Of a stretch of DNA of 64,000 bases, positions 11,304 through 14,429 are shown in pieces (positions within the stretch are counted from its first letter, which is position 1; each line of letters starts with the position of its first letter). Origin of the DNA: an uncultured Arenicella sp. (GTDB lineage: Bacteria > Pseudomonadota > Gammaproteobacteria > Arenicellales > Arenicellaceae); NCBI GenBank assembly GCA_937974565.1, contig CALJWL010000003.1, forward strand, positions 1 through 64,000, read 5' to 3'. Under the pieces are notes generated by a model. It was not told where the DNA came from, searched no databases, and worked only from the letters and a program-made list of their open reading frames with translations. The position numbers and the translations under genes are program-made.

Positions 11304-11906
11304 TTATTCTTCAGCTAATCGTCGATCTTTAAAGGCGGCGGCAAGTGTTCTTTGGTCCATGTACTCCAGTTCACCGCCCACAGGCACACCTCTGGCAAGG
11401 CGTGTCACTTTTACCCCATACGGCGCAAGTAATTGTTGAGTGTAATCAGCTGTTGCATCACCTTCAGCGGTAATGTTAGTTGCCACAACGACTTCTCTGA
11501 TCTCATTTTCAGCCACAGTTCGACTTAACTTTTTGAAGCCCAACTTTTCAGGGCCAATACCCTCCAAGGGGGATAAACGCCCCATTAAAACAAAATAAAG
11601 CCCCTGATAAGCCCCAATTTGTTCTAATGCTTCTAAGTCTGCGGGTGTTTCAACCACGCACAACAAGCCTTGATCACGTTTACCGGATAAACAGATTTCA
11701 CACAGTTCACTTTCGCAAAATGTGTTGCATCTTTCACAGCTGCGCACGGTATCCAGCGCGTAGTTTAATGCCTCAGCAATGGCTTTTGCACCCTCTCGAT
11801 TACGCTCCATCAAGTGAAACGCCATACGTTGCGCGTTCTTCGGCCCTACCCCAGGGAGGACTTTTAGCGCGATCTTTAGCGCTTCAATAGCGGCTGAGGT
11901 CGACAT
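11304..11906 (-). CDS. recR: Recombination mediator protein RecR
   Basis: A 200-residue protein of normal RecR length. It has a helix-hairpin-helix LKVLPGVGPKNAQRMAFHL near residue 15, a four-cysteine zinc finger CERCNTFCESELCEIC, and a Toprim domain starting LLCVVETPADLEALE. The end GGELEYMDQRTLAAAFKDRR is the standard RecR tail. With RecO it loads RecA on single-stranded DNA at gaps. It follows ybaB by 12 bp in the classical dnaX-ybaB-recR operon. Confidence 0.97.
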   Translation of the reverse strand: MSTSAAIEALKIALKVLPGVGPKNAQRMAFHLMERNREGAKAIAEALNYALDTVRSCERCNTFCESELCEICLSGKRDQGLLCVVETPADLEALEQIGAYQGLYFVLMGRLSPLEGIGPEKLGFKKLSRTVAENEIREVVVATNITAEGDATADYTQQLLAPYGVKVTRLARGVPVGGELEYMDQRTLAAAFKDRRLAEE

Positions 11907-11918
11907 CTAATGCATGAC

Positions 11919-12248
11919 CTAGAATGGCATTTTCATGCCGGGGATATTCAGCCCACCGGTCAAACCAGCCATTTTATCTTGCGAGGTTTTCTCAACTTTT
12001 CTCACGGCATCATTCATTGCAGCGGCGACTAAATCTTCCAATATGTCTTTGTCTTCGGCGTTGTCCATCAACTCTGGGTCTATGGTGACACTTTTTACAT
12101 CATGTCGGCAGGTCATAACCAGTTTTACCATGCCTCCCCCCGCTTCACCAACAACTTCAATGTTCGCCAACTCTTCTTGCGCTTTTTGCATATTTTCTTG
12201 CATGGCTTGCGCTTGCTTCATCAGATTACCTAGGCCACCTTTCATCAT
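11919..12248 (-). CDS. ybaB: YbaB/EbfC family nucleoid-associated protein
   Basis: A 109-residue dimeric DNA-binding protein. [46 protein letters not shown] is the family's conserved opening, with the long helix followed by a short sheet. Two adjacent ATG codons (12248 and 12245) are both possible starts. It lies between dnaX and recR, which is the conserved setting, and may link repair or recombination with the nucleoid; its exact role is not settled in any species. Confidence 0.96.
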
Positions 12249-12311
12249 AGCTCTGTACCGTAAAAACCTATTTTATGAATTCAAATTAGTTTGCCAATGT
12301 TCTAACTGATG

Positions 12312-14429
12312 TTAGGACAACGGCTTTATGGAGTTTTCTTTTATTTTAGCGTCAAATTCTGACATCAGAAATCGCACACTGGGGTCGCTTTGCATGGATT
12401 CACGAACTTGTTTTTCATGCTCGTAGCCTAAACGGCTAAGGCATTCAGCGGGGGTTTCTTCATCGCTTTCACTCATACCCAATTCAATCGTGATTTGCGA
12501 GTGAGTTGCCGCAATCACCGCTATCTTAATGTCTTGGAAGCGAGAATCCTCATACAGGTGTTTAAGCTTGGGTGATAAACGCAAATCGATTCGTTCATCA
12601 CTGATGCTCTGAGCAGCGCAATTCATGGCCAGTTCTTTGGCCATGCCCACCAAAGAAGTTTGCTCTACCAATTCACCCCACTCATTATTGCCCGCTAACG
12701 TCACGGAAATTAAACTCAAAGGTTGAAGTGCGTTTGAATTAGGGTTTATCTCGTGGTCCAACGCCCTACTTTCTGACGACTCAATTTGGCTAATTAGCGG
12801 TCCTGACGTTTGTGATTCAAGTACCGCAAGGGGGGGCGTTGACGCCGGCATGAGTGAATCAATAGGCTCTTTAACAGTAGAATGAGTACTTGAGTGTGGC
12901 AAAGCCACGCTCTCAGGCAACTCGGCTGAGCTGGATTCCCAAGGCGGAACCTCGACCATCAGTGGAATTTCGGCCATCGATGGAATTTCAGTGTCTGAGT
13001 GTCTTGGAGCGTTGCTCTGAACACTGGCATTGATCGGCGGCCTGTCGGCGCTCACATCGGTTAATATGTGACGATTAAGATTCGAATCACTTTCAGCATC
13101 GGCTTGTGTTTCAGAACTAAGGCAAGCACCGCTTGCTAAGCCATGGCCGACTGATTCAGTCATCTCAGCCGAGCTTTCTTTGTATTCAGGGGTTAAATTA
13201 ACTAACTCAAGTGTTTTTTTTTCCGTTGCTTCGAGGGCCTGTATTGTTTCAGTATTTGTCGCTTCCTGAGACTTTTCTTCAACTCGCGTTTGCGTCACGA
13301 TCTGAGACAGAGCGTCTGGAATCGCTACTGTCGACGGGTCATTCTCAGCCGGTTCAAAAGCAAACATCCGTAACAATGCCATTTCAAAACCAACTCGTAA
13401 ACTGGGCGCCAACGCAATATCTCGTTTACTAATCAAACCAATTTGATAAAAGAGTTGCAAAGATTCAGGTGCAACTATGCTAGCCAACTCTTTGATTTTA
13501 TTTAAATCAATGTCGCTATTTGCGATTGAGTTTGGTGAGACTTGAGCCAGCGATATGTAATACAACTGAATTAACACTTCATCCAAAGCAACAGTGAAGT
13601 CCACCGCGTTGTCAGCCATATCGGCAACCACTGAGAGCGCTTGGTCAACGTTATTTTTCAACAGTGCATCTACAATGGCTTGCGTATGTTCGGCCTTAAT
13701 TGTGCCTAGCATGGCTTGCACATCCACCGTGCGCACTTCCCCCCCGCCTTGGGCAATGGCCTGATCTAATAAGCTTAAGCCATCTCGCATGCTGCCATCA
13801 GCCGCTTTAGCAATGGCGTGTAATGCGGTTGCATCGTATTCAACGCCTTCATTACCCAGGATTTTGACCAGCTGATTTTCCACTTGTTCAGGCCGCATAG
13901 CGCGCAAATTAAACTGCAAGCAACGAGACAGAATTGTCACGGGTAATTTTTGCGGGTCGGTGGTCGCAAATAGAAACTTAACGTGTTCTGGGGGTTCTTC
14001 CAGCGTCTTCAACATTGCGTTGAAGCTGTGCCCAGAAAGCATATGAACTTCGTCTATCAAGTAAACTTTAAATTTACCTGAGGTTGGCGCATAGTGAACG
14101 TTTTCAAGAATTTCACGAGTGTCGTCAACCTTAGTGCGCGATGCGGCATCCACTTCAATAAGATCGACGTATCGACCCTCATCAACTGACAGGCAAGTAC
14201 CGCATTGCTGACAAGGTTCAGCACTGGTGCCTTGTTCACAATTCAGTGATTTAGCAAAAATTCTTGCTAACGTGGTCTTACCTACGCCTCGGGTGCCAGT
14301 AAAAAGAAATGCGTGATGAACGCGCCCAGTGTCTAAGGCATTTGAGAGAGCTTGCACCACATGCTGCTGTCCGACAACTTCGGAGAATGCTTTTGGTCGC
14401 CACTTACGGGCCAGTGCAAGGTATGCCAT
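12312..14429 (-). CDS. dnaX: DNA polymerase III subunits gamma and tau
   Basis: A 705-residue tau protein. Walker A is GTRGVGKT (residues 45-52), the zinc cysteines are C64, C73, C76 and C79, and a Walker-B-type LIDEVHML follows. The clamp-loader ATPase occupies about residues 1-370, a low-complexity linker runs to about 560, and the last 130 residues are the tau domain that binds the polymerase core. A run of nine A lies at codons 403-406 in the linker. Slippage by one base there gives a stop within two codons (-1) or three codons (+1), which would yield a roughly 407-residue gamma-like form. The gene follows the SRP RNA and leads ybaB-recR. Confidence 0.97.
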   Translation of the reverse strand: MAYLALARKWRPKAFSEVVGQQHVVQALSNALDTGRVHHAFLFTGTRGVGKTTLARIFAKSLNCEQGTSAEPCQQCGTCLSVDEGRYVDLIEVDAASRTKVDDTREILENVHYAPTSGKFKVYLIDEVHMLSGHSFNAMLKTLEEPPEHVKFLFATTDPQKLPVTILSRCLQFNLRAMRPEQVENQLVKILGNEGVEYDATALHAIAKAADGSMRDGLSLLDQAIAQGGGEVRTVDVQAMLGTIKAEHTQAIVDALLKNNVDQALSVVADMADNAVDFTVALDEVLIQLYYISLAQVSPNSIANSDIDLNKIKELASIVAPESLQLFYQIGLISKRDIALAPSLRVGFEMALLRMFAFEPAENDPSTVAIPDALSQIVTQTRVEEKSQEATNTETIQALEATEKKTLELVNLTPEYKESSAEMTESVGHGLASGACLSSETQADAESDSNLNRHILTDVSADRPPINASVQSNAPRHSDTEIPSMAEIPLMVEVPPWESSSAELPESVALPHSSTHSTVKEPIDSLMPASTPPLAVLESQTSGPLISQIESSESRALDHEINPNSNALQPLSLISVTLAGNNEWGELVEQTSLVGMAKELAMNCAAQSISDERIDLRLSPKLKHLYEDSRFQDIKIAVIAATHSQITIELGMSESDEETPAECLSRLGYEHEKQVRESMQSDPSVRFLMSEFDAKIKENSIKPLS
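13207..13222 (-). promoter_or_regulatory. A9 slippery run in dnaX with immediate out-of-frame stops
   Basis: On the coding strand, GAA AAA AAA ACA reads Glu-Lys-Lys-Thr, with nine A in a row (13222..13214). A -1 shift gives Asn-Thr-stop (TGA 13209..13207). A +1 shift gives His-Leu-Ser-stop. The position just after the ATPase region matches where E. coli (ribosomal frameshift) and Thermus (transcript slippage on A9) make gamma. Confidence 0.7.

Follow-up and report, generated by a model that had tools for sequence, protein, structure and literature searches.

In the window analysed here, i.e., the whole stretch of 64,000 nucleotides from an uncultured Arenicella sp., the dnaX gene carries a run of nine A in its linker. 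This run is probably a site kept by selection, at which slippage by RNA polymerase would give a mixture of messages and hence a gamma-like protein; this account, which is derived from sequence comparisons, is held with modest confidence. The broader statement that slippage of some kind makes a short DnaX is very probable. Three points are inferred, namely synthesis of the short protein in useful amounts, its action as gamma, and RNA polymerase as the machine that slips.

The A9 run and its predicted products

The gene is located on the minus strand (14429-12312), and no other full-length match to DnaX was found in the genome. Its features are the following.

12312-14429, minus strand: dnaX, DNA polymerase III tau/gamma subunit, open reading frame of 705 codons
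13740-14372, minus strand: ATPase and lid domains, residues 20-230 (Pfam PF13177 at 20-177, PF22608 at 182-230)
13359-13727, minus strand: domain III, residues 235-357 (Pfam PF12169)
12327-12710, minus strand: tau domain V, residues 574-701 (Pfam PF12170)
13214-13222, minus strand: A9 run, proposed slippage site; zero frame GAA AAA AAA ACA, codons 403-406
13215-13221, minus strand: A_AAA_AAA heptamer in the zero frame, potential ribosomal -1 site within the A9
13207-13209, minus strand: TGA of the -1 frame, two codons behind the run; predicted product of 407 aa (A10 transcript or -1 ribosomal shift)
13202-13204, minus strand: TAG of the +1 frame, three codons behind the run; predicted product of 408-409 aa (A8 or A11 transcript)

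The preliminary description, whose span (13207-13222) extends from the A9 through the -1 stop, had reported nine A at codons 403-406, where the -1 frame is closed two codons on and the +1 frame three codons on. The sequence bears this out in full, the run being exactly A9 from 13222 down to 13214. The same description had placed the run right after the ATPase region, which is roughly right, the run being located between domains III and V, about 45 residues past the end of domain III as delimited by Pfam (residue 357).

Slippage of RNA polymerase on the nine A/T pairs would generate a mixed population of dnaX mRNAs. Messages with A9 or A9+3n would encode full-length tau (705 aa and 76.8 kDa when translated in silico); those with A10 would end two codons on (407 aa, 44.5 kDa), and those with A8 or A11 would end three codons on, at 408 and 409 aa, respectively. 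The predicted short form keeps the ATPase, the lid and domain III; it would thus be a gamma-like product without the polymerase-tethering linker and without domain V, described in Pfam as interacting with alpha. Two sequence features of a Thermus-type site, i.e., at least nine A between domains III and V and stops in both shifted frames, are found in the window dnaX; such a site would further be expected to yield A8, A10 and A11 messages and tau and gamma in roughly equal amounts.

Regarding the surroundings of the gene, dnaX is followed by ybaB-like and recR-like genes (11304-14429; names assigned by eye), in agreement with the order annotated in E. coli, and an xseA-like gene (also named by eye) is located upstream of dnaX on the opposite strand. 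The sense strand of dnaX also contains a G7 at 13739-13745 (codon 229) and a C7 at 12830-12836 (codon 532).

Retention of the run in one clade of the genus

A dnaX gene was found in all 18 genomes of the genus, and the linker carries A9 in three of them, i.e., the window genome, G014 and G006. No run of more than six A was present in the dnaX sequence read from the other 15, the gene being truncated at a contig end within the linker in G004 and near the start of domain V in G007. The preliminary description had proposed to check in relatives whether run and stops are kept; in this respect the genus is split, since the expectation holds for the three clade members and fails for the remaining 15. 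The three carriers form a single clade (100/100) in a tree of RpoB plus DnaX residues 1-370, recovered both with 17 taxa and with 21 taxa, four of which lack RpoB. The tree of DnaX alone implies two changes of the A9 character, and a single change is obtained in 29% of 200 bootstrap trees. The simplest account of these sequences would be one gain of A9, kept in 3/3 sampled descendants.

In the dnaX gene of G014 (L003), two A9 runs are spaced 15 nt apart (codons 379-387) and each is followed by a separate -1 stop two codons on; a 15-nt unit may have been duplicated in tandem here. The four runs of the clade all read GAA AAA AAA ACN, and in all of them the -1 stop lies exactly two codons on; the +1 stop is found 3 codons on in the window, 15 and 10 in G014, and 6 in G006. 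The word GAAAAAAAAAC is present in all three members and, with 11 bases, is the longest one common to their linkers; none of 1000 codon-shuffled sets reaches this length, and when the A9 is masked the longest common word has 7 bases. At residues identical in the three species, lysine is encoded by AAA in all of them at 33/95 positions, and glutamate by GAA at 53/144; from these counts the expected frequency of three all-A wobbles is 0.044. The retention of A9 cannot be ascribed to lack of time, since the linkers of the clade are 21–26% identical with 50–70 gapped positions, and 56–61% of the four-fold third positions differ among its members, in dnaX as in rpoB.

Open reading frames of at least 80 aa contain 15 runs of nine or more A or T in the window genome (dnaX included), 7 in G014 and 8 in G006, and dnaX alone has such a run in all three. 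The 14 other runs of the window genome mean that an A9 by itself does not prove programming. A second shared run was considered, a homologous T9 pair in G000 and G006 (cobD-like by eye), and it was rejected, the runs being located at different residues (78 and 19). The absence of the run from 15 of the 18 genus members indicates that gamma made by the A9 route would be dispensable in the genus. In seven dnaX loci of the genus (L005, L006, L007, L010, L011, L013 and L019), the linkers consist of long repeats of low complexity (PAPQA-, APQVAPQ- or SPTP-like), very unlike the linker in the window.

These data also bear on the possibility that the run is incidental, i.e., that Glu-Lys-Lys-Thr happens to be encoded by A9 in a fast-changing linker where stops are common by chance, which we regard as distinctly unlikely. 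Under local codon use EKKT is coded as A9 in 34% of cases, and both shifted-frame stops are this close at 3.3% of 16,544 coding positions (47 open reading frames of the window), the corresponding value for the dnaX linker being 5.8% (191 positions). Taken alone, the double stop is therefore only mildly unusual, and the earlier statement that the pattern was unlikely by chance was exaggerated as regards the stops; it stands for the A9, which is the rarer part. The lack of the run in the rest of the genus and the putative duplication in G014 also agree with an incidental origin. Nevertheless, this view has to contend with the retention of the run in 3/3 members of the clade despite the divergence of linkers and silent sites, with the uniqueness of dnaX among the open reading frames of the three genomes, and with the presence of A9 or A10 in 28/28 genomes of two other genera, tau being out of frame in 3 of them (see below). 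In the window, one A9/T9 is found versus 6.85 expected from dinucleotide shuffles. Across the 3.37-Mb assembly, A or T runs of at least this length occur at 27 sites (28 rows as listed, two of which are a single T10); G014 has 12 in approx. 3.0 Mb, two of them within the dnaX linker, and G006 has 20 in approx. 3.6 Mb. Open reading frames of at least 100 aa in the window genome contain eight further A-sense runs, all of which lack a -1 stop within two codons.

Runs of nine or ten A in other Gammaproteobacteria

In the order, 109 genomes were searched, a dnaX match was obtained in 105, and 95 genes were read (21 + 9 + 65), ten being left out (nine plus L241). Among the 74 genes from outside the family, A9 is present only in L192, with stops 8 and 31 codons away, and A8 in nine, including L204, where the stops are located 1 and 6 codons on. 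A survey of named gammaproteobacterial records comprised 79 loci (80 less L023; L048, L055 and L067 are cut by contig ends), and a linker A9 was found in L031 (Psychrosphaera), L053 (Kangiella) and L100 (Oceanospirillum). In the last of these, from Oceanospirillum sanctuarii, A9G occurs at codon 397, followed by a stop after 3 codons in the -1 frame and after 1 in the +1 frame, and from its sequence Oceanospirillum is a possible fourth lineage with such a run.

The genera Psychrosphaera and Kangiella were chosen for further search since one member of each had A9, a criterion that did not apply to the other members; the genus labels of the surveyed genomes rest on the named starting records. 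Every dnaX gene from the Psychrosphaera genus has A9 or A10 (8/8, one gene being cut by a contig end), with stops 2 codons on in the -1 frame and 3–5 codons on in the +1 frame. Likewise, A9 or A10 is present in all 20 genomes searched of the Kangiella genus. In 17 of these, tau is encoded in frame 0 and both shifted frames stop within 1–4 codons, and in the other three (L307, L308 and L309, from G133, G127 and G134, respectively), the tau part is found in the -1 frame. The zero frame of these three genes ends at 370–374 aa, just behind the A10, and the -1 frame continues for 367–417 more codons, a stretch in which BLAST finds similarity to the end portions of two other DnaX proteins. Unless the length of the run was miscounted in the assemblies, recoding would be needed to make tau in these organisms; i.e., the site in this genus appears to tolerate a change of frame behind the run.

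The codon register of the run differs among the three lineages, whose named records come from distinct families; both facts speak for separate origins of the run. One old origin followed by many losses is a possible alternative.

RNA polymerase or the ribosome as the putative slipping machine

The same short protein could also be produced by -1 ribosomal frameshifting on A_AAA_AAA, which would be a weaker site than that of E. coli and one without strong stimulators. We consider this alternative rather unlikely, although several facts agree with it. The heptamer is in frame in all four runs of the clade, and their -1 stop is fixed at two codons (4/4) whereas the +1 stop varies. Sites of the ribosomal type, defined here by an in-frame A_AAA_AAG, a -1 stop no more than two codons on, and the absence of A9, are frequent in gammaproteobacterial dnaX, with 14 in the 79 named loci; the site of E. 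coli dnaX itself is the fifteenth. Moreover, shifts in one direction only have been read as a sign of the ribosome, and shifts in both directions as a sign of transcript slippage (PMC3711429), and by this rule the three out-of-frame genes of the Kangiella genus, all of which need -1, favour the ribosome. Finally, the only tRNA-Lys gene found in the window genome is a UUU gene of 76 nt, a single one as in E. coli. This count is bounded by the incompleteness of the assembly; it comes from 37 tRNA matches, of which 30 were scanned directly and five lie in neighbouring loci, the two unread ones having 84 and 88 nt. It has been suggested that the difference between Thermus, with two tRNA-Lys, and E. 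coli, with one, may matter in this regard (PMC5009743).

On the other hand, the length of the run favours RNA polymerase because a ribosome would need only seven A. The length is nine or ten in 32/32 runs of the three lineages, and nine in the four runs of the clade, despite the rarity of such runs genome-wide. The elements that stimulate frameshifting in E. coli dnaX are also missing. A Shine-Dalgarno-like word is present upstream of 4/32 A9/A10 runs versus 13/15 ribosomal-type sites (E. coli and 12 of the other 14), and upstream of none of the four runs of the window clade. As stated in the preliminary description, no strong hairpin follows the run: the 93 nt downstream fold with an MFE of -17.6 (z = -0.97), and 37 of 200 shuffled sequences fold as well. 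For the 70 nt downstream, the MFE is -29.6 in E. coli and -12.9 in the window. The median downstream MFE is -11.5 for the clade and -21.3 for the ribosomal-type sites; the z-scores differ little, and base composition therefore explains much of the gap in MFE. AT-rich linkers may be partly behind both the weak hairpins and the missing Shine-Dalgarno words.

The window dnaX has no in-frame A_AAA_AAG after residue 330; this region contains two frame-0 heptamers, A_AAA_AAA within the run and, at residue 562, AAACCCT, which has an immediate -1 stop. In E. coli, A_AAA_AAA is far less shifty than A_AAA_AAG (PMC5009743), and its ribosomes gave little sliding product on A9 or A10 in vitro (PMC4363877). 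The linkers of the 15 genus members without A9 have no frame-0 X_XXY_YYZ heptamer with a -1 stop within two codons. In G007 and G003 (L006 and L015), GGGTTTT with an immediate -1 stop is located at residue 347, inside domain III.

A close +1 stop would be needless for a pure -1 ribosomal shift. Its median distance is 2 codons in the Kangiella genus (17 genes) and 3 in the Psychrosphaera genus (8 genes), versus 13 at the ribosomal-type sites (p = 5e-7 and p = 0.002, respectively, values that treat species as independent, which they are not). In the window clade the median is 8 (p = 0.15, Mann-Whitney against the ribosomal-type sites), and selection on the +1 stop is not clearly seen in it.

Proteolysis of tau, as occurs in Caulobacter (PMC5009743), could also act in the 15 members of the genus that lack the run, but it would leave the retention of run and stops unexplained, and we consider it highly improbable that the short form arises in this way with an unrelated A9.

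Overall, RNA polymerase is moderately preferred to the ribosome as the slipping machine. The Thermus-like reading of the preliminary description is supported by the retention of the run in the clade against the divergence of the linker, by the absence of E. coli-type stimulators, and by the A9/A10 runs with close stops in Kangiella and Psychrosphaera. What counts against it is the split within the genus, the +1 stop of the clade, the shift of the out-of-frame Kangiella genes in the -1 direction only, the single tRNA-Lys, and the report that E. coli RNA polymerase slips more on T runs than on A runs (PMC6260861).

Comparison with known systems

Slippage at dnaX is established for Thermus (PMC3711429, PMC5009743, PMC1088944), and the reviews consulted give two ways of making gamma by slipping, with the ribosome in E. 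coli and with RNA polymerase in Thermus. The dnaX gene of T. thermophilus, like that of the window, has an intact tau reading frame with A9 (PMC1088944) on the sense strand and stops in both shifted frames. These are 2 and 16 codons on in Thermus (PMC4320859), versus 2 and 3 in the window, 2 and 6 in G006, and 2 and 10–15 in G014; given the values of Thermus itself, the distances in the clade (2 and 3–15) fit the Thermus pattern. The position of the run is different, 57% through the gene in the window as compared with seven-eighths in Thermus (PMC1088944). Furthermore, slippage has been measured in Thermus, which has two tRNA-Lys, whereas the gammaproteobacterial site is known from sequence and one tRNA-Lys was found.

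With E. coli dnaX the window shares the gene, the location in the linker after domain III and a -1 stop close behind the site. It differs in having A_AAA_AAA within A9 instead of A_AAA_AAG, a stop after two codons instead of one, and neither the Shine-Dalgarno word nor the strong stem-loop. A third system is that of the dnaX genes formed by two open reading frames that were detected with GeneTack, where 12 of 17 have a poly-A of 7–10, e.g., in Chlorobium, and recoding makes tau (PMC3711429). The poly-A of these genes is located at the boundary between gamma and tau, as in the window; in the window, however, tau is encoded in frame 0 and gamma would be the product of recoding. The two-frame layout is the one seen in the three Kangiella-genus genomes mentioned above. 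The frameshift in the dnaX gene of Blochmannia is located elsewhere, in the part of the gene specific to tau (PMC3017870).

According to one review, most other bacteria keep no dnaX frameshift signature (PMC3290774). A literature search covering few subscription papers yielded no study of dnaX in Kangiella or Psychrosphaera, and no paper on dnaX and "transcriptional slippage" dealt with these groups by its title; the main text of PMC3711429 mentions neither genus.

Significance

The recurrence of these runs in several gammaproteobacterial lineages, together with an apparent flip of the encoded product in one genus, makes the case more than routine. We tentatively propose, at somewhat less than even confidence, that run-length slippage by RNA polymerase at dnaX originated on three or more occasions among free-living Gammaproteobacteria, in differing registers and in replacement of the E. 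coli signal, and that tau and gamma have exchanged roles within the Kangiella genus. If the latter is true, the genus would have passed between a state in which tau is encoded and gamma is made by slipping and one in which gamma is encoded and tau is made by slipping. If A9 or A10 was indeed gained and kept in several lineages of this class, the run-length route would be a recurrent solution, and the disputed value of gamma could be tested by means of close relatives with and without the run.
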